Source: Candidatus Peregrinibacteria bacterium GW2011_GWF2_38_29
Lineage (GTDB): Bacteria; Patescibacteriota; Gracilibacteria; UBA1369; UBA12463
Length of the DNA: 43,032 nucleotides
Assembly: GCA_000992695.1 (NCBI GenBank)
Contig: LBUS01000017.1
Coordinates: 1-43,032 of the forward strand
Direction of reading: 5' to 3'
The notes under the pieces were generated by a model that ran no database searches, was not told where the DNA came from, and saw nothing but the letters and a program-made list of their open reading frames with translations. Every line of letters begins with the position of its first letter. Position 1 is the first letter of the stretch. The position numbers and the translations under genes were made by a program. Below are positions 5,696 through 24,442 of the stretch, piece after piece.

Positions 5696-6418
5696 ATGAA
5701 AGAGATTTTACTACAATTAAAGGACGTGCACGTGCATTTTGGCGGAGTTAAGGCCTTGGACGGCGTGAACGTTGATATAAACGCCGGTGAAGTCACAGCT
5801 TTGATGGGGCCAAATGGCGCTGGGAAATCAACGATTTTGAAAGCGGTTTTTGGATTGGCGCCTGTTACTTCGGGATCGATTTTGTGGCATAATGATGCGT
5901 TTAAACCGATTCCATATGAAGTTGTTTATAAGGGAATTTCTTTTGTTCCGCAGGGCAGAAGGGTTTTTGCACGATTAACGGTTGAAGAAAATCTTGAGAT
6001 TGGTGGATTCACCGTTGCTAATAAAAATGAATTGAAAGAGAGAATTGCCCGGATGATGGAGCTTTTTCCTGTTTTGAAACATAAAAGGCGTGAACCTTCG
6101 GGAAGTCTTTCCGGTGGGCAACAGCAGATGCTTGCGATTGCGCGCGGACTTATGACCGATCCAAAGGTTTTGCTTTTGGATGAGCCGTCTTTGGGACTTG
6201 CGCCGAAAATCGTGAAAGAAGTTTTTGAAAAAATTAAAGAAATTAATTTAAAACAAAAAACCGCGATTGTTGTCGTGGAACATAATATTAAATCGCTTTT
6301 AGGCGTTGCGGATCGCGTTTACGTTTTGGATAAGGGAAAAGTTGCGCTTCATGGGAATTCGGATGATATAGAAAATAGTGATATTATGAAGAGGGTGTTT
6401 TTAGGAGAGATGGAGTAG
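5696..6418 (+). CDS. livF: Branched-chain amino acid ABC transporter ATPase, LivF type
   Basis: The second ATPase of the importer, 240 residues from the ATG at 5696; a TTG at 5678 would overlap livG by 11 nt and adds nothing conserved. Motifs are Walker A GPNGAGKST, Q-loop in ISFVPQGRRVFARLTV (a LivF hallmark), signature LSGGQQQ, Walker B VLLLDEPSLGLAP and switch histidine in VVEHN. It closes the operon and is followed by a 126-nt gap carrying the promoter of the next gene. Confidence 0.94.
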   Translation: MKEILLQLKDVHVHFGGVKALDGVNVDINAGEVTALMGPNGAGKSTILKAVFGLAPVTSGSILWHNDAFKPIPYEVVYKGISFVPQGRRVFARLTVEENLEIGGFTVANKNELKERIARMMELFPVLKHKRREPSGSLSGGQQQMLAIARGLMTDPKVLLLDEPSLGLAPKIVKEVFEKIKEINLKQKTAIVVVEHNIKSLLGVADRVYVLDKGKVALHGNSDDIENSDIMKRVFLGEME

Positions 6419-6422
6419 GAAG

Positions 6423-6455
6423 GAATTACAAAATCTAAAATCCAAAGGACAAACG
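6423..6455 (+). repeat. A-rich degenerate repeat after livF
   Basis: TTACAAAATCTAAAATCC followed by an AAAGGACAAAC segment is a weak CAAAAT/TAAAAT repeat. It is of the same type as the repeat inside carA. Confidence 0.3.
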
Positions 6456-6498
6456 GTATTTTTTTGGTAACTTATTTCTTGCTAAATAATTAATTTTA

Positions 6499-6507
6499 TG
6501 TTATAAT
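6499..6507 (+). promoter_or_regulatory. Extended -10 promoter for the duplicated-module protein
   Basis: TGtTATAAT is a perfect extended -10, ending 37 nt before the ATG at 6545. No convincing -35 is visible, as is common for extended -10 promoters. Confidence 0.6.
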
Positions 6508-6544
6508 TGTAGTGTAAGTTCAAAAATAAATAACAAAAATAAAA

Positions 6545-7387
6545 ATGAAAAATCTATTTACGCCTAATCGTTTAGTGTTTTTTGAAGGAGCTCCCGGTGA
6601 ATCCTTTGTACCTGATTCTGAAAAGGTTACTGAGCATAAAAGCGATGAAGCTCTTAAGTTTCAGGCTAAAAAAGCTCCTGAATCTTTTGAGGGTACGGTT
6701 GAAGCGTATTTAACTCAAATAGATGCGGATGCTAAAAGATTTGAAGATAAAGCTAAAGAGGGTAAGTTTTTTGCATTTGGTAATCTTGGGGATTCTTGGA
6801 TTCCAAGCATTGACGGTTTGAGTAAATTACTTAAAGGTAAAGTTGATTCTGCGGATGGTATGTATGATAAGCACGTAGCTTTACGAGAAGCTCGTTGTGC
6901 ATTACATCCTGTGGTTACAAGGCTTGAAAGATATTTAAAACAAGCGGAAGGAGTAACAAAGCAAGTTGATGCATTTTCTTGGGATAGAGTTAAGGATTTT
7001 AGAGCGTCACTTGGTATGAAGCCGGTCGATATGTCTGATGTTCTTATTCGTGGTGATAAATTTGATATTGATAGCGCTGCTTCTGAAAAAGAATCCTTAT
7101 TTGATAAAGAAGGTCGTTATTTTCAATATGGTAATTTAGGAGATAATTGGATTCCCCTTATTGATAATCTTGTTGGTAGATATGAAAGAAAATATTCAGA
7201 AGCTACCGATGCGTCTAAAAAGGAAGGTGTTATTAAGGAGGCAAAAACTGAAGTTGGGCTCGCTGTCCATAGGTTGGCTGAATATTTGAGGAGAGTTGAG
7301 GCTAAAACCGGTGAACGTGATGAGCAAAGCTGGGTGGCTTTACGTGGAATTATGGATAAGCTTAAATTTGATAAAGTAAAATCATAA
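6545..7387 (+). CDS. Orphan protein with two copies of an unrecognised GNLGDxWIPxID module
   Basis: I do not recognise this 280-residue protein. It has an internal duplication. Residues 73-158 and 190-275 align: FGNLGDSWIPSID (78-90) matches YGNLGDNWIPLID (195-207), then a helical Lys/Ala/Glu-rich stretch, an HPVVTRLERYL or VHRLAEYLRR helix, and a closing SW..(V/A)..(R/F)..M helix. The N-terminus MKNLFTPNRLVFFEGAPG lacks a signal peptide or membrane segment. It looks soluble and cytoplasmic, mostly helical, with a conserved Trp/Asp loop per repeat. It has its own promoter and lies between livF and pyrB. Confidence 0.75.
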   Translation: MKNLFTPNRLVFFEGAPGESFVPDSEKVTEHKSDEALKFQAKKAPESFEGTVEAYLTQIDADAKRFEDKAKEGKFFAFGNLGDSWIPSIDGLSKLLKGKVDSADGMYDKHVALREARCALHPVVTRLERYLKQAEGVTKQVDAFSWDRVKDFRASLGMKPVDMSDVLIRGDKFDIDSAASEKESLFDKEGRYFQYGNLGDNWIPLIDNLVGRYERKYSEATDASKKEGVIKEAKTEVGLAVHRLAEYLRRVEAKTGERDEQSWVALRGIMDKLKFDKVKS

Positions 7388-7390
7388 TTG

Positions 7391-7399
7391 TGATATACT
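7391..7399 (+). promoter_or_regulatory. Extended -10 promoter for pyrB
   Basis: TGaTATACT ends 23 nt before the pyrB ATG, predicting a leader of about 16 nt without a Shine-Dalgarno sequence. The same nonamer precedes pyrC. Confidence 0.55.
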
Positions 7400-7422
7400 T
7401 TTTCTAGTTTAAAAGTATTTAT

Positions 7423-8349: not shown

Positions 8350-8398
8350 GTTTATGAAAAATTTAAGATTTGTTTAGAGGGATTTAATCTTGGTTAGG

Positions 8399-8404
8399 TA
8401 TAAT
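8399..8404 (+). promoter_or_regulatory. -10 of a near-leaderless promoter for the BRO-N gene
   Basis: TATAAT ends 9 nt before the ATG at 8414, so the transcript would start within about 3 nt of the start codon. Confidence 0.5.
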
Positions 8405-8413
8405 TTGAGTTGT

Positions 8414-9262
8414 ATGAATGATTTACAAAATAACAAGCTGGTATTGTTTCAGTCAAAAAAGATCCGTCGTACTTGGCATAACGATGAGTGGTTTTATTCG
8501 GTAGTGGATGTTATTGAAGCACTAACCGATAGCCCTACGCCGAGGCAATATTGGGGGAAGGTTAAACAAAGGGAATTCGTCGACCTTCAGTTGTCCCCAA
8601 TTTGGGTACAGCTGAAGTTAGAGAGCGCTGATGGCAAGAAATATGACACGGACTGTGTGAATACCAAGGATGCATTTCGTTTGATACAGTCAATTCCAAG
8701 TAAGAAGGCGGAACCGTTTAAGAGATGGCTTGCTGAGGTTGGGAAGGAAAGGCTTGATGAAATAGAAAACCCTGAATTGGCCCAAGAACGCATGAAGGCG
8801 CTTTATGAAAAGAAAGGTTATTCCAAGGATTGGATTGATAAGCGTTTGCGAGGAATTGCGATTCGTCAGAATTTGACTGATGAATGGAGGGATCGCGGGC
8901 TTATTTACGAAAAGGATTATGCAATTTTGACGGCGGAAATATCCAAGGCTACTTTTGGCATGACGCCAAACGAGTATAGGAAATACAAAAATATTTCCAA
9001 TAAATCGAAGGTAAATTTAAGGGATAACATGACAGACTTGGAGTTGATTTTTACGATGCTTGGAGAAAAGATGACAATTGAAATTTCCAATAAAGAAAAA
9101 CCGAAGGTGATGATAGAACATAAAAAAGTGGCAAGGCGTGGAGGTGATGTTGCTGGAAATGCGAGAAAACAAGCGGAAAAAGAGCTGGGACGAAGTGTGT
9201 GTTCAAAAGAAAATTATTTGGAAAATCCGCAGGATAGGAAATTTATTGATAATGGTATGTGA
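8414..9262 (+). CDS. BRO-N domain protein (antirepressor-like)
   Basis: The product has 282 residues from the ATG at 8414; an in-frame TTG at 8390 lies upstream of the -10 and is rejected. The N-terminal third carries a BRO-N-type domain: IRRTWHNDEWFYSVVDVIEALT, then PRQYWGKVK and the FKRWLAEVG helix. The C-terminal part contains EKKGYSKDWIDKRLRG, TFGMTPNEYKxYK-like and NLRDNMTDLELIFTMLGE segments, typical of the chromosomal BRO-N proteins often annotated as phage antirepressors. BRO-N and KilA-N domains bind DNA in phages and large viruses; the role of this chromosomal form is unknown. It separates pyrB from pyrC on the same strand, and no phage genes surround it. Confidence 0.85.
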   Translation: MNDLQNNKLVLFQSKKIRRTWHNDEWFYSVVDVIEALTDSPTPRQYWGKVKQREFVDLQLSPIWVQLKLESADGKKYDTDCVNTKDAFRLIQSIPSKKAEPFKRWLAEVGKERLDEIENPELAQERMKALYEKKGYSKDWIDKRLRGIAIRQNLTDEWRDRGLIYEKDYAILTAEISKATFGMTPNEYRKYKNISNKSKVNLRDNMTDLELIFTMLGEKMTIEISNKEKPKVMIEHKKVARRGGDVAGNARKQAEKELGRSVCSKENYLENPQDRKFIDNGM

Positions 9263-10530: not shown

Positions 10531-11457
10531 ATGTTAAAAATAAAATTTCTTGGCGTGGAGTTTGAAAACCCAACAGTTTTGGCTTCCGGAATTTATCCGA
10601 CAGCCGCAAATGCTTTATTACAAGCCGTTAATAATGGTGCGGGTGGAGTTACGACAAAATCGATTTGGTTGACTGAACACAAGGGGCATCCTGCTCCAAC
10701 TTTAATTACAAATGCGAATTTTACGATTAATGCGGTTGGGCTTTCTGATCATGGAGTTGACGTGAGTGGAAAAGAGATTTTGGCGTATAAAGAAAAGATT
10801 GCGGCTGACTCAAAGAAAGCGCCGATTATTGTCAGTGTTGTGGCCGGAACAAAGGCTGATTTTGGCCTTATTGCTGAGAAAATTAGCGTTTATAATCCGG
10901 ATATTATTGAAGTGAACATTTCTTGTCCAAATGTTGAATCTGAATTTGGAAAACCTTTTTCGTGCGATAAAATGGATGCTGCGGAAGTTACGAAAAATGT
11001 TAAAGCGAGAACGAAATTGCCGGTTATAATTAAGCTTTCGCCAAATGTTTTGAATATTTCGGAAATTGCAAAAGCTGTCGCAGATGCGGGAACTGACGGG
11101 TTTTGCGCCATAAATACGCTTGGACCCGGTATGATTATTGATCTTGAAAAAAGAACACCGTTTTTATCGAATAAAGTTGGTGGAGTTTCCGGACCCGGAA
11201 TAAAGCCGATTGCCGTGCGATGTGTTTATGATATTTATAAGGCTACAAAGCTTCCGATTTTGGGCATGGGTGGGGTCGTTTCTGGCAAAGATGCAATTGA
11301 AATTATGATGGCTGGAGCAGGCCTGATTGGGCTTGGTGCTGCGATTTACATGCGTGGGCCAACGGCTTTCAAATTAGTCGCTGATGAAATGGCCGAATGG
11401 ATGGCTTCCCATGGTGTAAAAGATTTGACTGAGATTATCGGAGTTGTGCAAGTTTAA
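10531..11457 (+). CDS. pyrD: Dihydroorotate dehydrogenase, class 1
   Basis: It oxidises dihydroorotate to orotate using FMN. The 308 residues lack the N-terminal membrane helix of class 2 enzymes. The catalytic base is Cys132 in NISCPNV, as in class 1, and the FMN-binding segments GVTTKS, NTLGPG, VGGVSGPGIKP and GMGGVVSGKDA are present. It is most like the 1B (NAD-linked) type, which normally needs the PyrK iron-sulfur/FAD subunit; no pyrK occurs in the window. It follows pyrC by 19 nt, probably in one transcript. Confidence 0.95.
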   Translation: MLKIKFLGVEFENPTVLASGIYPTAANALLQAVNNGAGGVTTKSIWLTEHKGHPAPTLITNANFTINAVGLSDHGVDVSGKEILAYKEKIAADSKKAPIIVSVVAGTKADFGLIAEKISVYNPDIIEVNISCPNVESEFGKPFSCDKMDAAEVTKNVKARTKLPVIIKLSPNVLNISEIAKAVADAGTDGFCAINTLGPGMIIDLEKRTPFLSNKVGGVSGPGIKPIAVRCVYDIYKATKLPILGMGGVVSGKDAIEIMMAGAGLIGLGAAIYMRGPTAFKLVADEMAEWMASHGVKDLTEIIGVVQV

Positions 11458-11471
11458 AATCGTTTTTTAGA

Positions 11472-11501
11472 TTGAATTTAAGGTTGGAAGGTGGCTATAA
11501 T
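11472..11501 (+). promoter_or_regulatory. Predicted promoter of the large AAA-type ATPase gene
   Basis: TTGAAT (11472-11477) and a perfect TATAAT (11496-11501) are separated by 18 nt. The ATG at 11527 is 25 nt further on. A run of five Cs lies between the -10 and the start. Confidence 0.6.
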
Positions 11502-11526: not shown

Positions 11527-14500
11527 ATGGCGGATGTAAATAAGCCAAAAGGTCCTGTAGAGGGTGGCGATGGTGGGAGCGATAAACCTAATGTGCCTTT
11601 AGAGCTGGATGATGATTTTGGGCGACTTTCCGGTGAGGTTGCTGAACGCGTTAGCGTAGCTTCAACTCCAACTGTTTTAAGAGATGCTTTGCCTTCTTTG
11701 CCTGAAGATCAAGAAATCGGTAAAACAGGAACCGTTAGATGTTCTGTTTTGATTATGAAATTAGCTGATCAATCTGTGGATGAAAAGATTAGAGTGTGCG
11801 CAGAAAATGAAGGTGGGTTTTTTGAAAGATCCGGCGATTCTGTGAGAGTTGTTTTTCGAGGAGAAAGAGTTGAGTCAAGTGCTGTTTTGGTTGCGACGGC
11901 AATTCGAAAACTTGGTGTTCCGGAAATTGAAAGTGCCGCTGTTATTTTGGCTAATGGTAATTTTAAAACGAAAAAGGGTCAGATTTTTTGGGACACCGAA
12001 GGCAAAAATATTAAGTCTGCAATAGACGCTGTTTCGAATATGCCTTCGACTGGGTTACACATGTATCCGATTAATAAAGATTTTATTGATATGCTTGAAA
12101 ATCCAAGAAATGCAGATAAGGTTGGGATTGAGGCATTTCCTATGGGCGAAACCGGAGTTTTTGGTATAAAAAGTATAGAAAAACGCTATGGAAGGCTTCT
12201 TGTTGGTGGTCCAAAAGGTATCTATGGAAGAGAAAACGAAATGGGGCAAATGGAAGATTTGTTATCCGGTGATAAGATTGCTCTTGGTACTGCAAAATTG
12301 ACTCTTACAGCTAGAGCCGGTGTTGGTAAAACGAAATTTATAAAACATGCTCTTGAAAAACTTTCTTTGCGTCATGAAAAAGCTTCAACTCTTTATGTTG
12401 CAGCTTCTGAGCCGAAAAAAGCTAAAGCATTTTCGTTTTTGACAGGATTTGGTGGATTTATTCCGCGATTGTTGGAAGTTGCAAAAATCAAAGTTCTCGA
12501 TGCTGATAAAATGCCTGTATATCAAGAGTTGGCTGGTCTTGCATCTGGCACAAGTGAGTTATTGCAAGACGTCTCTGTCCTTCAGCATAAGATCAAAATT
12601 TTAATGGGGAAAATTGCTGAAGTATTTCCTCTTTTCATTGCTTTTGATGATCAGCAATGGGTTGATGACGCGTCTGCCGCTGTGCTTAGAGGTATTTTTA
12701 AAGATCCTATTGCTAACGTTGCTGTTATTGGTGCAACGAGAATCCAAGAAGGCGAGAATCCTCCAAAAGCTTTGCAGGAAGTTTTTGCCGGATCTAAGAA
12801 TATTGAACTTAATAATTTAAATTTGATTGATGCTTCTCATAGGCCTACAGGTACATTGCGAGGATTTGTTAGGGATATGCTTGAAATTAAAGACGAAGGA
12901 GAGGATTTCCCGATTTCTTTTTATACATTCCTTGCTGAAAAATCAAAAGGTCATGCTTTGAAATTAGTTGAAGGTATTAATTTATTAATTAAAGGAGGAT
13001 TTTTGCAAAAAGGTTCTGTTCTGTGTAAAAGAGGCTATAAAAATGTTGAAATCCCTGAAACCGAAGAAGCTCTTCTTGAATCACGTATTTCCAAATTACC
13101 AAGAGATCAAATTTTTATGTTGTTAAATTTGTGTATGCTCGGGCCTTCTTCCACAAAATTATTATCTGCAATATTTACTAATTCCGTTCAAAGAAAAGCT
13201 ATTTTGGGGCTTGAGAGCAATGGGATCATACAAAGAGAAAAGGGTTATGGGTTTGATCTTATGTATCCAACTATAAGAGAAGTGATGTTTAAAGTTTATG
13301 GCGAAGATGTTGAGCCTTGTGCTAGAAGTTTGATTGAACCTTTTAAAAGAATAATGGCCGAAGGTTCATTTCCTGCCGAGTGCACTTCTTATAAGTTGTA
13401 TGAATTAGCGCAATTGGCAAACGATTTGCCTACACAGATGGAGTGTTCGATGTCTGCGGGGAAAGAGGCTTTAAGTAGATATGATAATGAAAAAGCCATT
13501 GAGATTTTTGAATTTGCACGTGGTCAAAGACACGGGCTTCTTGATGATGGCTCAAGTTTTGGTATTTATACCGGACTTGCAAAAGGGAATTCTCAAATGG
13601 GTGACTATTCTGCAGCAACTGCTCATCTAGAGAGCGCTTTGGGGTATCTTAATCCTGATGATGTAGATATGGTTTTTGAATTTCATACTGCTTCAAGAGA
13701 TGCTTTTTATTCTGCGCAAGATATTAAAGGACTTGAAGAGGCCTGTGAAAGATCCTCTAGAATAGTGGATTCGAAAGAGAAAAAAGTTAGTGCACAAATA
13801 TATGATACGGAACGTTTTAAAGTGGATTTTGATATTGCCAGATGCTTTTATTTGAAAGCTGCATCAAAAGACTCTGAATTTGTTCCTTTTAGTATGGTGA
13901 GAATAAAACTTGAAGATTTGCAAAAAAGAATAGGGCTCTATTCTTATATAGATCCTGATGGGCGTTTTAGTAGAGAGATTAAGAGATTTATTGGTTTGAC
14001 TCATTATCTTGAGCACGGGCGTGTTGATTCGGATGCGGCAGTTGTTGGTAATGTTAAAGTGATAAATGATAGTTATTGTAATGCGATTGTTTATTTGGAG
14101 CAGTTTTTAGCGGAATGGAGAGAGAGCCCATCCGGTACAAATCCAAAAGCTGTTATATCTGCTTTGAGATGCTGTGGTTATGCAAAGGCTATGCTTGGAG
14201 ATGTCGGTTATAGTGTTTTATTTGATGAAGCCGCTACTCTTGCTATAAAATACGGTGATTATTCAGCGGCCGCTGATGCATTGAATATATTTGGTGGCGC
14301 CGAGGTAGATCTTTATAGAAGAGAGGGAGGGGAGGATGTTAATTTATTGCATTCTGCCTTGCAGCATTTTAAAGAAGCTGAAAGAGAAATGAATTTGCTC
14401 AATTCGAAGCCTTCATGGACGGTTAGATCCGTATCTCATAATAAGGCTCAGGCGTATTATTCTTTGGGTCTATTGTCAAGCGGTGATGAGAGTGGTGAAA

Positions 14501-14787
14501 TGTTTGCGCAGGCATTTAAAACTTTAGAAAAAGATTCCATAGCTCATAGAAGAGGAGGGTCTGACCACCTTTCTCGGTATATTGTTCCGCTTATTGCTCT
14601 TTTAAGGAAAGCTGATGATAGCGGAAGGGTTGATCGTACAATGCGTATGTCTTCTTTTGTTATTAGTGGTGAAGATATCGCTGAATCTATTGGTTATATA
14701 CATGGGCAAATTGATACGCAATCTAATACGTCTGATGGCTTGAGGCTTTGTTTTATATGTTGCAATCGCGCGATACTGCCAATTTGA
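11527..14787 (+). CDS. Large STAND/AAA_16-type ATPase with degenerate cyclase-like N-terminus and helical repeats (3' end frameshifted)
   Basis: The product has 1086 residues in this frame. Residues about 65-225 follow the layout of a class III cyclase homology domain: an EGGFFERSGDSVRVVF strand pair and a late PSTGLHMYPIN segment, but the catalytic metal aspartates are not seen. GIYGRENEM then leads into a P-loop ATPase with Walker A ARAGVGKTK (K268) and Walker B LFIAFDDQQW (D374, D375), as in MalT/LuxR and cyclase-coupled AAA_16 proteins. The remaining ~600 residues are helical and TPR-like (for example YDNEKAIEIFEFARGQ and GNSQMGDYSAATAHLESAL). No DNA-binding domain is visible. The frame ends early at 14787, while coding-like sequence continues in the -1 frame to 15152. 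It lies between pyrD and pyrE with its own promoter; a regulatory role is only a guess. Confidence 0.82.
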   Translation: MADVNKPKGPVEGGDGGSDKPNVPLELDDDFGRLSGEVAERVSVASTPTVLRDALPSLPEDQEIGKTGTVRCSVLIMKLADQSVDEKIRVCAENEGGFFERSGDSVRVVFRGERVESSAVLVATAIRKLGVPEIESAAVILANGNFKTKKGQIFWDTEGKNIKSAIDAVSNMPSTGLHMYPINKDFIDMLENPRNADKVGIEAFPMGETGVFGIKSIEKRYGRLLVGGPKGIYGRENEMGQMEDLLSGDKIALGTAKLTLTARAGVGKTKFIKHALEKLSLRHEKASTLYVAASEPKKAKAFSFLTGFGGFIPRLLEVAKIKVLDADKMPVYQELAGLASGTSELLQDVSVLQHKIKILMGKIAEVFPLFIAFDDQQWVDDASAAVLRGIFKDPIANVAVIGATRIQEGENPPKALQEVFAGSKNIELNNLNLIDASHRPTGTLRGFVRDMLEIKDEGEDFPISFYTFLAEKSKGHALKLVEGINLLIKGGFLQKGSVLCKRGYKNVEIPETEEALLESRISKLPRDQIFMLLNLCMLGPSSTKLLSAIFTNSVQRKAILGLESNGIIQREKGYGFDLMYPTIREVMFKVYGEDVEPCARSLIEPFKRIMAEGSFPAECTSYKLYELAQLANDLPTQMECSMSAGKEALSRYDNEKAIEIFEFARGQRHGLLDDGSSFGIYTGLAKGNSQMGDYSAATAHLESALGYLNPDDVDMVFEFHTASRDAFYSAQDIKGLEEACERSSRIVDSKEKKVSAQIYDTERFKVDFDIARCFYLKAASKDSEFVPFSMVRIKLEDLQKRIGLYSYIDPDGRFSREIKRFIGLTHYLEHGRVDSDAAVVGNVKVINDSYCNAIVYLEQFLAEWRESPSGTNPKAVISALRCCGYAKAMLGDVGYSVLFDEAATLAIKYGDYSAAADALNIFGGAEVDLYRREGGEDVNLLHSALQHFKEAEREMNLLNSKPSWTVRSVSHNKAQAYYSLGLLSSGDESGEMFAQAFKTLEKDSIAHRRGGSDHLSRYIVPLIALLRKADDSGRVDRTMRMSSFVISGEDIAESIGYIHGQIDTQSNTSDGLRLCFICCNRAILPI

Positions 14788-15152
14788 TAAGGACTTACAA
14801 GGTTATCGCGAAAGAGATCAACAGTATTCATCCCGTGAAGGTTCCAGGCCATGGTATTCGGTATTTTGCGCAAAAACCCGGTGCGACCGAAGAAACGCCT
14901 TATGACATGAGAAGACTGTATGGACATCTTATTCCTTTAGCGACTTTTATCTTGAATGTTGTAAAAGAGAGAGGCGTTCCTATTGATAAGGCTGTAGGCG
15001 GTATGAATCCTAAATATGTCGATGCTTCAAAGGGACATTTAAATATGAATATTGGGATTAGTTCTGATAGTTCACGCTTAAAGCGCGTCCTTAAAATAGA
15101 ACGCGCTAGTGTTTCAACTTTATTCCCGGACCCTGCTTCAGAAACTGATTAA
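14748..15152 (+). pseudogene. Frameshifted C-terminal continuation of the large ATPase
   Basis: The -1 frame relative to the upstream ORF is open from just after a TGA at 14733-14735 to 15152. Its only early starts are a TTG at 14748 and an ATG at 14757, both inside the upstream gene, with no promoter or ribosome site. The text (EALFYMLQSRDTANLIR, then KVPGHGIRYFAQKP) reads as a natural extension of the helical domain. One missing base between 14736 and 14787, for example in the T run at 14750-14753, would join the two into about 1,200 residues. An independent overlapping gene is less likely. Confidence 0.55.
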
Positions 15153-15160
15153 GAATTAAT

Positions 15161-15409
15161 TTATCTAGGCATCCACGGGGTTGGATCTAAAATTTTGATC
15201 CAAGAAGAGCTGTTTAAAGAAGAAGTTGCTGATTGAGTTGTTGTTCTTTTTAGTTGAGTTGTGTTTGTCGTTGGAGTTAAAACCGCGGCTTTGCCGTCTT
15301 GACTTTTCCACATGTTATTAAGTAGAAGAAGTGAAACAATCATTGCACCTGTGAGGAGTCCCAACCAGAAAATTATCAATGGTTGATAGTTCATGAGCTT
15401 TGTTTTCAT
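15161..15409 (-). CDS. Small single-pass membrane protein
   Basis: An 82-residue protein of unknown function. A short basic N-terminus (MKTKLMNYQP) precedes one hydrophobic segment at residues 11-30. A Thr/Ser/Asn-rich low-complexity tail (44-70) follows and probably lies outside the membrane. There is no Cys, lipobox or recognised domain. It is convergent with the large ATPase gene (8-nt gap) and has a good promoter of its own, which supports it as a real gene. Confidence 0.6.
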   Translation of the reverse strand: MKTKLMNYQPLIIFWLGLLTGAMIVSLLLLNNMWKSQDGKAAVLTPTTNTTQLKRTTTQSATSSLNSSSWIKILDPTPWMPR

Positions 15410-15704: not shown

Positions 15705-16346
15705 ATGGCTTCAACTGAAATTGCGAAAATTTTACTTGAAAATAAGGCTGTGAAATTGTCTTTTAATCCGCCTTTTACTTATACGTCGGGGATGAAAGGG
15801 CCGATCTATACGGATAATCGTGTGCTTGTCTCGTTTGTAGGTGCGCGCGATACTATTGTCGATGGATTTTTGGCGGCGATAAAAGAAAATAATCTTGAAT
15901 TTGATTATGTGGCCGGAACTGCGACTGCGGGAATTCCTTGGGCGGCTTTTGTTGCGCAAAAACTCGGTGTGCCAATGATTTATATTCGACCTGAACCAAA
16001 AGGACATGGAACAGGAAAACAGATTGAAGGCTTTCTTGAAGCCGGAAAGCGTGTTCTTGTTGTTGAAGATTTGGTTACGACGGGTGGAAGCAGTTTGAAA
16101 TCTGTGAACGTTGTGAAGAATGAAGGGAAATGTATTTGCGATTCGGTTTTGGCGATATTTACATATGGACTTGGAAAATCTGTTAAGGCTTTTTCTGAAG
16201 CTGGCATTAAACTGTTTGCGCTTACGGATTTGGATGAACTGCTTAAGGCTGCGGTTGCAAGCTCTTTTATTTCTGCGGATGATGAGGCAAAAATATTGGA
16301 ATATAAAGCGGATCCGGAGAATTGGGCGAGCAAGATGGGACTTTAG
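15705..16346 (+). CDS. pyrE: Orotate phosphoribosyltransferase
   Basis: It transfers the phosphoribosyl group of PRPP to orotate, giving OMP. It has 213 residues from the ATG at 15705 (MASTEIAKILLE), the usual length; an upstream in-frame extension to 15483 crosses the promoter and a repeat element and is not conserved. The PRPP-binding motif VLVVEDLVTTGGSS is intact, as are the orotate-loop segment SGMKGPIYTDNR and GTATAGIPWA. pyrF follows after 82 nt of repeat-filled sequence. Confidence 0.96.
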   Translation: MASTEIAKILLENKAVKLSFNPPFTYTSGMKGPIYTDNRVLVSFVGARDTIVDGFLAAIKENNLEFDYVAGTATAGIPWAAFVAQKLGVPMIYIRPEPKGHGTGKQIEGFLEAGKRVLVVEDLVTTGGSSLKSVNVVKNEGKCICDSVLAIFTYGLGKSVKAFSEAGIKLFALTDLDELLKAAVASSFISADDEAKILEYKADPENWASKMGL

Positions 16347-16428: not shown

Positions 16429-17379
16429 ATGTCTAAATTTCATTTTGCAGATAGGCTGATTGAGGCGATTAAGCTTAAGAAAAGCGTTGTTTGTGTGGGG
16501 CTTGATCCAAGACTTGATAAAATTCCGGAATTTATTCGTGATAAGCATTTTAAAAAACATGCGAAATTTCCATTTTTGGCGGCGAGTGAGGCGATTTTGG
16601 AATTCAATAAAGGTCTTATCGATGCGGTAAAAGACGTTGCCGTTATTGTGAAACCGCAAATCGCTTTTTATGAAATGTTTGGGGCGGAAGGAATTAGTTG
16701 TTTTATTGAAACTATGAAATATGCTCGCGAAAAAGGTTTGCTTACAATTGCTGACGCAAAAAGAGGGGACATTGGAACGACTGCCGAGGCTTATGCAAAG
16801 GCGTTTTTGGGAAAAGTGAAAGTTGGTGATAATGAGCAAGAAATTTTTGGTGCGGATTCGATTACAGTTGCGCCTTATCTTGGATATGATGGAATTAAAC
16901 CGTTTATTCAAGAGTGTAAAGTGAACGGAAAAGGAATGTTTGTTCTTGTGAAAACTTCAAATAAATCTTCAGGCGATTTACAGGATTTATTTGTTGAAAA
17001 GAGCGAAAAAAACGCACCTCAACCTGCGTTTCATATTATGGCGCAATACGTTGATTCTTGGGGTGCTGATGATATTGGAGAAAGCGGTTATAGCTGTGTT
17101 GGAGCTGTTGTTGGAGCGACTTATCCAAACCAGGCCGTTGAACTTCGTAAATTGATGCCAAATGCAATATTTTTGGTTCCGGGTTATGGCGCACAAGGCG
17201 GAACTGCAAAAGATGTTGCGGGGTGTTTTAATAAAGACGGACTTGGTGCAATCGTGAATTCATCACGCGAGATTTGCTTTGCTTATGAGAAATCGGAGAA
17301 ATACACTGCGGAGAATTATGCTGAGGCTGCAAAAGAGGCCGCAGAGAAAATGCGAGATGATATTGCCAGCGTTCTTTAA
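16429..17379 (+). CDS. pyrF: Orotidine 5'-phosphate decarboxylase, type 2
   Basis: It decarboxylates OMP to UMP, ending the pathway. At 316 residues it is the longer type 2 form (the actinobacterial-like PyrF subfamily). VCVGLDPRLDKIPEF near the N-terminus, VKPQIAFYE and the catalytic DAKRGDIGTTAEAYA motif (Asp-Lys-Asp array) are present. The phosphate-binding segment is VPGYGAQGG. A mid-protein loop (FLGKVKVGDNEQEIFG) matches the usual insertion of this subfamily. Confidence 0.95.
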   Translation: MSKFHFADRLIEAIKLKKSVVCVGLDPRLDKIPEFIRDKHFKKHAKFPFLAASEAILEFNKGLIDAVKDVAVIVKPQIAFYEMFGAEGISCFIETMKYAREKGLLTIADAKRGDIGTTAEAYAKAFLGKVKVGDNEQEIFGADSITVAPYLGYDGIKPFIQECKVNGKGMFVLVKTSNKSSGDLQDLFVEKSEKNAPQPAFHIMAQYVDSWGADDIGESGYSCVGAVVGATYPNQAVELRKLMPNAIFLVPGYGAQGGTAKDVAGCFNKDGLGAIVNSSREICFAYEKSEKYTAENYAEAAKEAAEKMRDDIASVL

Positions 17380-17415: not shown

Positions 17416-19599
17416 ATGCAAGCGGAGGCAATTCATGGCTATTTGGACGAGGAAGGAGCCGATATGTTGTATTTTATGGAGTGGGCAAGGGATGCTGAGC
17501 AAAAACGAGCTGAACGCTTGGAGTCTTTAGTGAAGCCTGAGCGATTTTCTGATTTGTGGGTTAAAAGAGAATTGTTGAGAAGTGGTGCGGTGCGACATTT
17601 TATGAAAAAAGATCCTACAACTGGCGAGATGGTTGAAGATGATGGTACGAAAGGTGCGCATAATGATGTTTATGAATTCGATAGAGGGAAGTTAGTGGTC
17701 TTGTTGAAAGGATGGGCTAAGTTTAAAAACCCTAAAGCCGTTGAATCTTTTGATTTCGCCGTAGAAAAATTTGCAGATTATATTTCCGGTCGTTTTGTCA
17801 TGAAAGTCGGTCGTACGAGGCATTTTATTGTTAAGTTTGGTGTTGAAAGAAGATATGTGCCAAGAGATATGATGGCTGCGGCTTTTGATCCGGTTGGATA
17901 TCCGCAAATAAACGGTCCGAAACGTATTGAAAAACTTGAGAGAGAAGTTCTTCGAGCCAATGCTTATATTGGTAATGAGGAAAAGCATTCGATTGTTGCG
18001 CCTTGTGTACTTTCTGAAATTGAAAGATTTTTAGGGAATCCTTTGGGCTTTAAGCCTGCTGTTTCCGGTGAATTTATGTTGAGAGATGATTCAGCTAAAA
18101 CCGGTAAAACTATTTCTGATGTTGCTGAGATTGATAGTAATATACCGAAATTTTCTGATCGTTCTGCGTATATTGCGTTTAATAAAGAAGCTAGAAGATG
18201 TGGAATTGATAAGCTTGAGGATGCTTTGCGTCCATTTTTTGATAGTCTTGTTAGGCTTGGTCTTCACGATGTTGTGCAGAGATTTGCAAGTACAAAACTT
18301 GGCAAGAAATTACTTGGAGAAAAGAGAGCTAACGCCGGTTATAAGCGCCATACAACTCTTATTTATGAAGAAGCGGAGAAAATAATAAAAAGACTTACCG
18401 CAAAATATAAAGACCATAGTTTTTTAGCGGCTGAGCAAACAACTTATGGTTATGATCCGCGAGTTTCGGCTGAAGAATGGGGAAAAATCGCCGAAGGAAA
18501 TGAGGAAGCCGTTTCATGTTTTGAGCATGATTTTACAAGAGTTATGCGGGATATGCCGGATTATATTCGCGCTATTTTTGATGATCCAAAGATCGCGCAC
18601 GAATTTTGTTATATGGCCATGGAGCATTGGCATCAATCTCCTGATTATCCAGTTGATCAAACTGATACGGTTATGAGTTTGACGATGGTTAAATTGCTTT
18701 TGAAAGCCGCTTATTATTTTTATATTTTAGATTCAAAAACACCTTATACTCCTCAAAGAAGCACTAAGTTTTCTGATGAAGAAGGGCTTAAAAGATTTTT
18801 TGAAAAATTTAAGGAAGAGGATTTACTGGAGATGTCAAAAAGAATGAACTTGATGCTTCGTTTGCATGATCAGTGTGCGAAACAAGGGAAGAGACCGAAA
18901 TTTCAAAGATTTGAAAAAACGTCTACGAAGATGCAGGAAAGGCTTGATTATAACGGTGGTGATAAGAAGATTCTTGGGCCAATGCCGATTTCAGAGCTTA
19001 TGACAAAAAATAAAAAATTGCTTAAGGATTATCGTGGGATTAGCGAACAACTGCTCGTGTATTTTTATCAGTTGTATAAGATGTTTAAACAGACCGGTTA
19101 TATTTTGGATCAAAGACCGGATAATGTTGCTGAGGGCGTTTTTATTTTTGGAGATTGGGCTCTTCAAGCTGAAAATATTCAAATAGTTATTTTTGAAGAT
19201 AAAGACGGTAATGCATATCCAAAAGTTGTAAATATTGATCCCGAAGATCATTTTAGAAAGTTGCCAAAAGAAACTGATAAAAAAGATCCAAGAGAAGGGC
19301 TTGGTACTTCCGGTTTAAGCGTTGCTGATCTTATTGCTGAGGCTTCCGCTCATAGGTCTATTGGTTTTGCGATTGATAATGTTGCTGATAACATGGGAAT
19401 TCCAGGAGATAAAACGGATTGGCCGCCGGAAAGATTGCTTGTTCAAGCGGCTTTGGATGTAACACGCACAGGCGTTTCTAATATTAGAACAAGCGTTGAC
19501 GATGCTTCGCATGCGGCTCGCGGGGAATTTAGAAGTAGAATTGGAGAAGTTCTTGGTTTTCTTGGGGCTGTTTTACAATCTCCAAGGCAAAAGATTTAA
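17416..19599 (+). CDS. Large orphan protein with kinase-like sequence features
   Basis: I do not recognise a family for this 727-residue soluble protein. Near the N-terminus NDVYEFDRGKLVVLLKGW (83-100) resembles the kinase-fold nucleotide-binding strands, where the second Lys would be the ATP-binding residue. Near the C-terminus YILDQRPDN (D565, N570) resembles a kinase catalytic loop, and VVNIDPED (D608) could be the metal-binding Asp. The distance between the two is long, about 43 residues instead of near 20, with an inserted strand pair. The middle 300 residues are helical and charged. There is no signal peptide or membrane helix. A diverged kinase or pseudokinase is an inference. The gene ends 3 nt from convergent rsmA. 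Confidence 0.7.
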   Translation: MQAEAIHGYLDEEGADMLYFMEWARDAEQKRAERLESLVKPERFSDLWVKRELLRSGAVRHFMKKDPTTGEMVEDDGTKGAHNDVYEFDRGKLVVLLKGWAKFKNPKAVESFDFAVEKFADYISGRFVMKVGRTRHFIVKFGVERRYVPRDMMAAAFDPVGYPQINGPKRIEKLEREVLRANAYIGNEEKHSIVAPCVLSEIERFLGNPLGFKPAVSGEFMLRDDSAKTGKTISDVAEIDSNIPKFSDRSAYIAFNKEARRCGIDKLEDALRPFFDSLVRLGLHDVVQRFASTKLGKKLLGEKRANAGYKRHTTLIYEEAEKIIKRLTAKYKDHSFLAAEQTTYGYDPRVSAEEWGKIAEGNEEAVSCFEHDFTRVMRDMPDYIRAIFDDPKIAHEFCYMAMEHWHQSPDYPVDQTDTVMSLTMVKLLLKAAYYFYILDSKTPYTPQRSTKFSDEEGLKRFFEKFKEEDLLEMSKRMNLMLRLHDQCAKQGKRPKFQRFEKTSTKMQERLDYNGGDKKILGPMPISELMTKNKKLLKDYRGISEQLLVYFYQLYKMFKQTGYILDQRPDNVAEGVFIFGDWALQAENIQIVIFEDKDGNAYPKVVNIDPEDHFRKLPKETDKKDPREGLGTSGLSVADLIAEASAHRSIGFAIDNVADNMGIPGDKTDWPPERLLVQAALDVTRTGVSNIRTSVDDASHAARGEFRSRIGEVLGFLGAVLQSPRQKI

Positions 19600-23427: not shown

Positions 23428-23433
23428 AACTGG

Positions 23434-23442
23434 ATTATATCA
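23434..23442 (-). promoter_or_regulatory. Leaderless extended -10 promoter of the Ca2+ ATPase operon
   Basis: On the minus strand TGaTATAAT occupies 23442-23434. Only 6 nt separate it from the ATG at 23427, so transcription should start on the start codon. Confidence 0.65.
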
Positions 23443-23558
23443 TTTCTATAGGGCTTATCATTAAAAAATTTAGTTTAAAGTTATTTCATGAATTTTTAAA
23501 AGAAATTTAATCTTTTTATGTAAAAATCATTTTGTTTATAACTAATAATTTTAAAAAT

Positions 23559-24392
23559 ATGCAAAATGATGCAAAAAGAACGCTTAGTGTTAAGGGTGTG
23601 GAAATCGCTTTAATAAAGCAAAAACATGAGGATTATATTTCCTTGACGGATATGGCGCGACCGTTTGGTGGCGATAAGGTGGTTGAAAATTGGTTAAGAA
23701 ATAAAAATACTATCGAATTCCTTGGAATTTGGGAATCTCTTAATAATCAGAGTTTTAAACCCCTCGAATTCGAGGGGTTTAAAAAAGAAGCGGGTTTGAA
23801 TAGGTTTACGCTTTCCTCTAAGAAGTGGATTAAGGCGACAGGTGCTATTGGTTTAACCTCTAAATCCGGGAGGTACCATGGTGGCACTTTTGCTCATAAG
23901 GACATAGCTTTTGAGTTTGGGTCGTGGTTGAGTCCTGAATTTAAACTGTATTTGATCAAAGAATTTCAGCGTCTTAAAGAGGAGGAAAGTCGTTCAAAAT
24001 CGTTTGAATGGGATGTTGCCAGAATTTTGACTAAAATAAATTATAAAATTCATACTGATGCGATAAAGCAAAATTTGATACCGCTGAAAATAGCCGAGAT
24101 AAACCAAAATATTGTATATGCGGATGAAGCGGACGTTTTGAATAAAGCGTTATTTGGGATGACGGCACGAGAATGGCGCGACAAAAGCCCTGACAAAAAA
24201 GGAAATGTGCGTGATTATGCGATAATGGAGCAGTTGGTTGTTTTGGTAAATATGGAAAGTTTTAATGCGGAATTGATAAAAGTCGGTTTATCACAATTCG
24301 ATAGATTAAAAAGGCTGAATGAGATAGCGATAAGCCAGATGAAATCGCTTTTGGGGAATTCGGGAGTAGATCGGCTGAAAGGCGGTGTTTAA
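23559..24392 (+). CDS. KilA-N domain protein
   Basis: The product has 277 residues from the ATG at 23559; an in-frame TTG at 23532 lies upstream. The KilA-N DNA-binding domain fills the N-terminal half: ISLTDMARPFGGDKVVENWLRNKNTIEFLG, then a KKWIKATGAIGL stretch, GRYHGGTFAHKDIAFEFGSW and LSPEFKLYLIKEFQRLK. The C-terminal half is helical. Chromosomal homologues are common in bacteria and often lie alone, as here; their function is unknown. A perfect 32-bp palindrome sits inside the gene. It is convergent with trmD, 31 nt away. Confidence 0.88.
   Translation: MQNDAKRTLSVKGVEIALIKQKHEDYISLTDMARPFGGDKVVENWLRNKNTIEFLGIWESLNNQSFKPLEFEGFKKEAGLNRFTLSSKKWIKATGAIGLTSKSGRYHGGTFAHKDIAFEFGSWLSPEFKLYLIKEFQRLKEEESRSKSFEWDVARILTKINYKIHTDAIKQNLIPLKIAEINQNIVYADEADVLNKALFGMTAREWRDKSPDKKGNVRDYAIMEQLVVLVNMESFNAELIKVGLSQFDRLKRLNEIAISQMKSLLGNSGVDRLKGGV
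23753..23784. repeat. Perfect 32-bp palindrome within the KilA-N gene
   Basis: Each arm is TTTTAAACCCCTCGAA, reading into its exact reverse complement with no spacer; the centre is an EcoRI-type GAATTC. It encodes SFKPLEFEGFK of the KilA-N domain. In mRNA it would form a hairpin of about 14 bp with a 4-nt loop. Confidence 0.9.
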
Positions 24393-24408
24393 AGGTAACG
24401 AATTCGTG

Positions 24409-24442
24409 ATCTTTAAAAAAGTTTCATTTAAGATTCTTTTTT
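24409..24442 (+). terminator. Weak A/T hairpin with T-run between convergent KilA-N and trmD genes
   Basis: ATCTTTAAA (24409-24417) can pair with TTTAAGAT (24427-24434) with one bulged base, followed by six Ts at 24437-24442. The stem is almost all A/T and overlaps the 3' end of trmD, so the call is weak. Confidence 0.3.

Follow-up and report, generated by a model that had tools for sequence, protein, structure and literature searches.

The window analyzed here, a 43,032-nucleotide stretch of contig LBUS01000017.1 from Candidatus Peregrinibacteria bacterium GW2011_GWF2_38_29 (source assembly, 1.23 Mb over 23 contigs), contains an open reading frame (ORF) at 11527–14787 on the forward strand that begins with ATG and encodes 1086 residues between the pyrimidine genes pyrD and pyrE. 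On the strength of structural models, we lean toward the view that this protein is built as a MalT-like switch of the signal transduction ATPases with numerous domains (STAND) type, with a degenerate cyclase-fold domain at its N terminus. Pfam matches and models support the domain order proposed in an earlier sequence-only reading of this DNA, in which a degenerate cyclase-like domain is followed by a STAND-type ATPase and helical repeats, and the position of the ORF given there is borne out by the reading frame and by the Pfam and NCBIfam assignments of the flanking genes. We compare the window protein with its counterpart in the sister genome, 'Candidatus Peregrinibacteria bacterium GW2011_GWC2_39_14' (G001; nearest relative, same genus), where the copy is intact and forms one frame of 1223 residues.

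The ATPase is the only part of the ORF with a significant Pfam match. AAA_16 (PF13191) scores 34.8 bits, above the curated cut-off of 32.6, and it is matched in all 14 aligned family members at E ≤ 10. The domain covers residues 233–398 (12223–12720, forward strand) and not the proposed 235–600. Within it lie a Walker A motif, ARAGVGKT (residues 262–269; 12310–12333), and a Walker B motif, LFIAFDDQQWVD (residues 369–380; 12631–12666), with the core DDQQWVD. After Walker B, the window protein and its G001 counterpart both read VAVIGATRI; the arginine of this motif, the STAND sensor-1 residue, is invariant (R405) across the five rows of our A1 profile. Structural comparison with VIA-align places aligned region 181–379 of the model on MalT (8bob, Z 10.4) and region 186–379 on ORC2 (1w5t, Z 10.4). 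The features by which STAND ATPases are recognized as nucleotide binding, namely the PF13191 match, both Walker motifs, and the MalT fold match, are all present. An NCBIfam search of the protein returned nothing, and a Protein Data Bank sequence search with either the window protein or the A1 profile found no useful relative.

The region C-terminal to the ATPase appears to be a tetratricopeptide repeat (TPR)-like array, in keeping with the helical repeats foreseen from the sequence. By sequence, TPR_12 gives a hint alone in the window protein (E 0.052, Pfam). A model of residues 560–1223 of the intact G001 protein is all helical, and by VIA-align its repeats, at about residues 805–1056 (13939–14694, forward strand), match Gpsm2/LGN (7ep7; Z 15.4, root-mean-square deviation 12.1 Å over 247 residues), Rap (4gyo; Z 14.0, 3.7 Å over 134), and domain III of MalT (1hz4; Z 12.3, 3.7 Å over 127). 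Because helical models reach Z values up to about 13 by chance, we call this part TPR-like and no more. At the sensitivity of this low-confidence all-helical model, the intact G001 protein showed no output domain of either a DNA-binding or a catalytic kind, which agrees with the earlier remark that no output domain is visible.

The N-terminal domain (residues 63–210; 11713–12156, forward strand) was modeled with AlphaFold2 (AF2), run template-free on an alignment of four rows (the window protein, L094, L095, and L096), none of them a recognized cyclase. The modeled elements run strand, helix, hairpin, helix, two strands, helix, strand, helix, which is the order of class III cyclases. Residues 63–210 (model residues 14–161) superpose on class III cyclases with VIA-align Z scores of 9–10.4, where values below 8 are common by chance: 2bw7 at Z 10.4 (105 residues, 3.4 Å), 9f1w at Z 10.2 (136 residues, 4.2 Å), and human soluble adenylyl cyclase (sAC; 4clt) at Z 9.3 (138 residues, 5.0 Å). 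Cyclases fill the part of the match list that covers this domain, a list from which the absence of any other fold carries no meaning. Foldseek gave a weaker result, with two matches at E ≤ 0.001, both to proteins other than cyclases, and cyclases appearing from rank 19 (E 0.006, probability 1.00). The ratio of nonsynonymous to synonymous change (dN/dS) between the window and G001 is 0.21 over residues 66–225, which indicates that the domain is under purifying selection.

Several observations weigh against this assignment of domains. The AF2 model of the N-terminal part has a mean predicted local distance difference test (pLDDT) score of 52.6, its best N-terminal blocks reaching 69–81; the region that follows the ATPase, where a winged helix is expected, lies mostly below 50; and the C-terminal model averages 44.6. 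Because model confidence is this low, the fold matches, including the class III cyclase fold of the N-terminal domain, are indicative only. The cyclase profile PF00211 matched neither the window domain nor that of G001, even at E 10 (hmmscan), and a comparison by hhalign with 25 of the order's CHASE2-type cyclases (30 loci were tried, and a motif filter left out five) gave 0.2 %. In an hmmsearch with a local cyclase profile against family members and shuffled sequences, the window protein did not rise above the shuffles. Between family groups, hhalign reached up to 99.8 %, partly owing to the linker next to the ATPase; with the linker removed, f14–f14b (99 %) and f14–mixed (97 %) held, and the window's own family against other families fell to about 0.1–1 %. 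The STAND GxP motif is also altered, reading KGHALKL (GHA) in the window protein and in G001. It reads GNP in five other members (G003, G004, G006, G007, and G011), and a pattern search found no GxP in most of the remaining family members. Profile searches and structure prediction together thus brought out the AAA_16 domain and, at Z 9–10.4, the predicted fold of the dead cyclase-like N terminus that the sequence-only reading had proposed, but none of the sequence profiles tried gave a cyclase match.

Reading of sequence motifs suggests that the N-terminal domain is likely to be catalytically inactive. Anchored on the CS-x-L that opens the first strand both in the window protein and in members of f14 (G034 and G086, for example), the position of the first metal-binding aspartate is occupied by Lys78; this is a reading of the motif and not a superposition. 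Asp81, invariant in A1, lies close to Lys78. At the second metal-binding position the window protein has Asp104 and its G001 counterpart a Ser, again from motif reading and not from a residue-level structure alignment. In the fourth helix, EGKNIKSAIDAV, the alignment is uncertain and the transition-state N...R pair could not be read. These features argue against an active cyclase under STAND control, of the kind represented by Chloroflexi cyclase-AAA_16-TPR proteins or by human sAC, and so does the absence of a PF00211 match in both species. The fold match to class III cyclases and the shared domain order speak for such an enzyme, and the Chloroflexi relatives found by the same query carry PF00211, AAA_16, and TPR domains; even so, we regard an active enzyme as extremely improbable. 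Proteins of the type found in Candidatus Lucifugimonas marina (L107), retrieved by the same query, have cyclase, AAA_16, and TPR parts in the same order as the window protein, but their cyclase domains score 83–92 bits in PF00211 and the proteins start with zinc ribbons (two tested), whereas the window domain scores nothing. In human sAC (ADCY10), it is the second catalytic domain (chain residues 282–469 of 4clt) that aligns to the window model, but the window protein has room for one cyclase-like domain, inactive-looking.

A short motif may preserve one trace of cyclase ancestry. Residues 113–115 of the window protein (11863–11871, forward strand), after the third strand, read ERV, and its family form [EQDK]R[ASVG] occurs in 25 of 28 members (a set that leaves out the fragment G056), 133–150 residues before the P-loop; shuffled controls gave a mean of 1.95 and a maximum of 9 of 28. 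With six near-duplicates removed, 19 of 22 members retain it, and the match in G011 looks chance-like by context. A strand-glycine-strand hairpin precedes the motif in most members, among them the window protein (SGDSVRVVFRGER). In class III cyclases, as sequences from the order show, the third helix opens with xRA, and the family motif may be a retained form of it with the loop shortened in most members.

One family protein is more cyclase-like. G030 (L091:4672-9033), a 1453-residue STAND protein, is the one of 14 members in the Pfam search with a PF00211 match (E 0.0016), and it seems, weakly, to have two cyclase-like domains before its ATPase, the second of which is matched at E 0.0019. By reading, its first domain keeps D and GD and its second keeps N...R, the split known from sAC, and G030 may be an active relative. 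Its P-loop has GIGVT in place of GKT, and in the hmmsearch with the local cyclase profile G030 scored no better than shuffled sequences. A search upstream in other members for tandem cyclase-like domains was negative, and we keep that arrangement for G030 alone. A further step would be that, within one order of Peregrinibacteria, a STAND enzyme with tandem cyclase domains, perhaps surviving in G030, turned into a noncatalytic receptor that reads nucleotide pools, with the window family reading pyrimidine nucleotides beside pyrE through the conserved arginine with which the third helix begins. We consider this scenario highly improbable.

By analogy with MalT, our preferred reading, held with somewhat more than even confidence, is a STAND switch with a noncatalytic cyclase-fold output. 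As in the MalT mechanism (PMC6468293), the TPR part would bind an inducer, either a protein or a small molecule; the TPR-like sensor would then free the ADP-locked ATPase, ADP would be swapped for ATP, and the proteins would assemble. Assembly would bring the N-terminal cyclase-fold domains together, and the paired domains would bind a partner protein or nucleotide instead of producing cyclic AMP or cyclic GMP. We take this output to be noncatalytic because most of the recognizable catalytic residues are lost.

The comparison with MalT of Escherichia coli and other TPR-sensor STAND proteins rests on a shared STAND-type ATPase followed by a TPR-like sensor, with MalT fold matches to both parts. 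MalT has a C-terminal LuxR-type DNA-binding domain. The window protein differs in that its extra domain is N-terminal and has a cyclase fold, and its GxP motif is changed. Mycobacterial mclx proteins (CHD-AAA/NB-ARC-LuxR, CHD being the cyclase homology domain) share with the window protein a cyclase homology domain before a STAND-type ATPase, and several copies are described as likely pseudogenes (PMC4452763). They end in a LuxR DNA-binding domain, whereas none is seen in the window protein.

The window copy itself is broken. In the nucleotide alignment with G001, a 25-nucleotide deletion flanked by a short GCTT repeat maps to 14737–14741 (forward strand); beyond it the frame shifts, and 14 foreign residues, the last of the 1086, precede the stop. 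About 145 C-terminal residues are thereby cut off. A 134-residue open frame at 14748–15152 (forward strand) continues the C terminus of the G001 protein, and its dN/dS against G001 of 0.29 marks it as still constrained coding sequence, so the break is either recent or an assembly error. Since a recent deletion took away the last part of the protein, the copy in the window genome is probably impaired or dying. A stronger version of this view, in which the gene is on its way to becoming a pseudogene and its truncated product is idle, draws on the frameshift and on the same-genus genome G002, which has pyrD and pyrE but no copy. We find it unlikely: the rest of the gene keeps an open frame and its conservation both before and after the break, the G001 copy is intact, and the deletion is seen in a single assembly in which an error is possible.

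The gene is also probably a mosaic. From 12400 to 14735 (forward strand) it is nearly identical to the sister copy, synonymous sites included. The synonymous divergence (dS) over residues 290–1070 is 0.07, about one sixth of that in the neighboring pyr genes (0.37–0.49 for pyrC, pyrD, and pyrF), and the N-terminal 225 residues reach 0.67. Purifying selection by itself would not explain so few synonymous differences, so a recent exchange of about 2.3 kb between the two lineages is the probable cause. At the protein level, divergence at either end of the gene outpaces that of the pyr genes. Fast-evolving parts and recombination are common in conflict systems, and a fast-evolving N terminus, a recombined core, the STAND architecture, and a patchy distribution (25 of 353 genomes) would suit an anti-phage sensor whose repeats recognize a phage protein and whose N-terminal domain triggers the response. 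The window protein, though, matched no PADLOC family at E 0.01, only four weakly matched PADLOC families turned up among 14 members, and no toxic effector was recognized; a defense role is thus very unlikely in our judgment.

The family as a whole appears fast evolving and largely confined to one bacterial order. The five-row A1 profile matched 12 of the 89 genomes of the order, and a 14-row profile matched 25 of 353 genomes of the class, all of them labeled as belonging to the window's own order or closer. When 379 genomes sampled from the phylum were searched, nine were matched, four of them outside the class and over the ATPase only. By reading, tblastn relatives outside the candidate phyla radiation (CPR) are cyclase-AAA, kinase-AAA, or BTAD-AAA proteins. 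The identity of the sister genome bears out the CPR origin of the window. The earlier remark that CPR cells have few such large regulators needs qualifying, as one or two family proteins are encoded by each of 25 genomes among the 89 in this order. Tandem pairs of STAND family genes occur in G020, G031, and G070 (L150, L151, and L054).

The location of the gene among pyr genes had raised the possibility of a nucleotide-sensing role. Pfam and NCBIfam matches identify pyrC and pyrD (10531–11457, forward strand) on its upstream side and pyrE (15705–16346, forward strand, ATG at 15705) and pyrF (16429–17379, forward strand) on its downstream side. In a neighborhood survey that used the pyr proteins of the window as queries, pyrE adjoins the STAND gene in G000, G001, G003, and G007, which represent two genera of one family, so that synteny is kept in four of the six carriers of that family. 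It is not kept in G004 and G006, which have the STAND gene with no pyr gene in the surrounding stretch, and G002 and G005 have pyr clusters but no STAND copy. For copies outside the family, the surrounding stretches that were retrieved, several of them short contigs of 3.9–8 kb, contained no recognized pyr gene. For these reasons, the STAND proteins taken together do not look like a pyrimidine-locus family. The position is kept within a clade and differs between clades, which vertical inheritance fits better than a shared pyrimidine role, and on balance we favor the view that the pyr location is an inherited position in one family and not a key to function.

A pyrimidine regulator, in which the cyclase-fold or TPR part would bind UMP, UTP, CTP, or orotate and control the adjacent pyr genes, gains from the gene lying directly 5′ of pyrE-pyrF in the same orientation in those four genomes, a position shared despite an identity of only about 20 % between the g1 and g2 proteins. 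Beyond the copies away from pyr genes and the pyr clusters without a copy, two further points count against it: no DNA-binding domain was found, and a convergent ORF stands between the gene and pyrE in the window. We therefore judge such a regulator quite unlikely, and nucleotide sensing finds no support beyond gene position. The convergent ORF (15161–15409, reverse strand) encodes 82 residues with a hydrophobic N-terminal stretch and has no Pfam match. The separate promoter that had been proposed corresponds to a promoter-like site, TTGAAT-18-TATAAT, at 11472–11501 (forward strand) 5′ of the ORF, with 10 of 12 consensus matches. Both hexamers are identical in G001, but such sites are no commoner in the region than in shuffled sequence (13 observed, 15.8 expected).

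Partners tied to cyclic nucleotides showed no association with the gene. Class III cyclases were matched in 51 of 89 genomes of the order, and a pairing of the STAND gene with the genome's own class III cyclase was rejected (13 of 25 carriers and 38 of 64 noncarriers; Fisher p 0.63). In the window's own family, four carriers (G003, G004, G006, and G007) lack any class III cyclase match, an observation that speaks against a cyclase-linked product or partner. Proteins that bind cyclic nucleotide monophosphates occur in four of eight genomes of the family, with no pattern relative to the STAND gene.

Elsewhere in the order, the copies have other neighbors. In f14, gyrB and a FecR-like gene of about 800 residues recur beside many copies. 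A functional link to the latter was dropped since 73 of the order's 89 genomes have it; one of seven FecR-like proteins tested reaches Pfam FecR, below the cut-off. The neighbors in G011 and G066 read, from their first residues and not by search, as pyruvate formate-lyase and its activase. In two f2 genomes, proteins of about 1080 residues with class III cyclase matches of 35 and 18 bits (L089:5718-8960 and L090:2605-5859) adjoin gyrB and the FecR-like gene, the place held by the STAND protein in f14.

Other features of the window lie apart from the STAND gene. A Bro-N domain gene (PF02498, E 1.2e-9) at 8390–9262, between pyrB and pyrC, falls in a stretch unmatched in the G001 alignment. Also absent from that alignment are 23429–24436, which holds a 286-residue ORF (23532–24392) whose start is KilA-N-like by reading, and 6406–7420, which contains a 280-residue ORF of unassigned kind. 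After pyrF, a 727-residue protein is encoded at 17416–19599; it has no significant match in Pfam or NCBIfam, and each of the three genomes seen from the genus has a relative at this position.

The window protein differs from the known systems compared here in its degenerate domain, its lack of a recognizable output, and its near-confinement to one order, and among the open-licence papers listed none dealt with such a protein in CPR bacteria. If STAND switches do contain pseudoenzyme forms of class III cyclases, they would illustrate the reuse of a second-messenger enzyme as a binding module. They would also show that cells with only about 1.2 Mb of genome retain a family of signaling switches of 1,200–1,500 residues. 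If the N-terminal domain binds nucleotides, it would provide a direct and testable link between nucleotide pools and signaling in uncultured bacteria.

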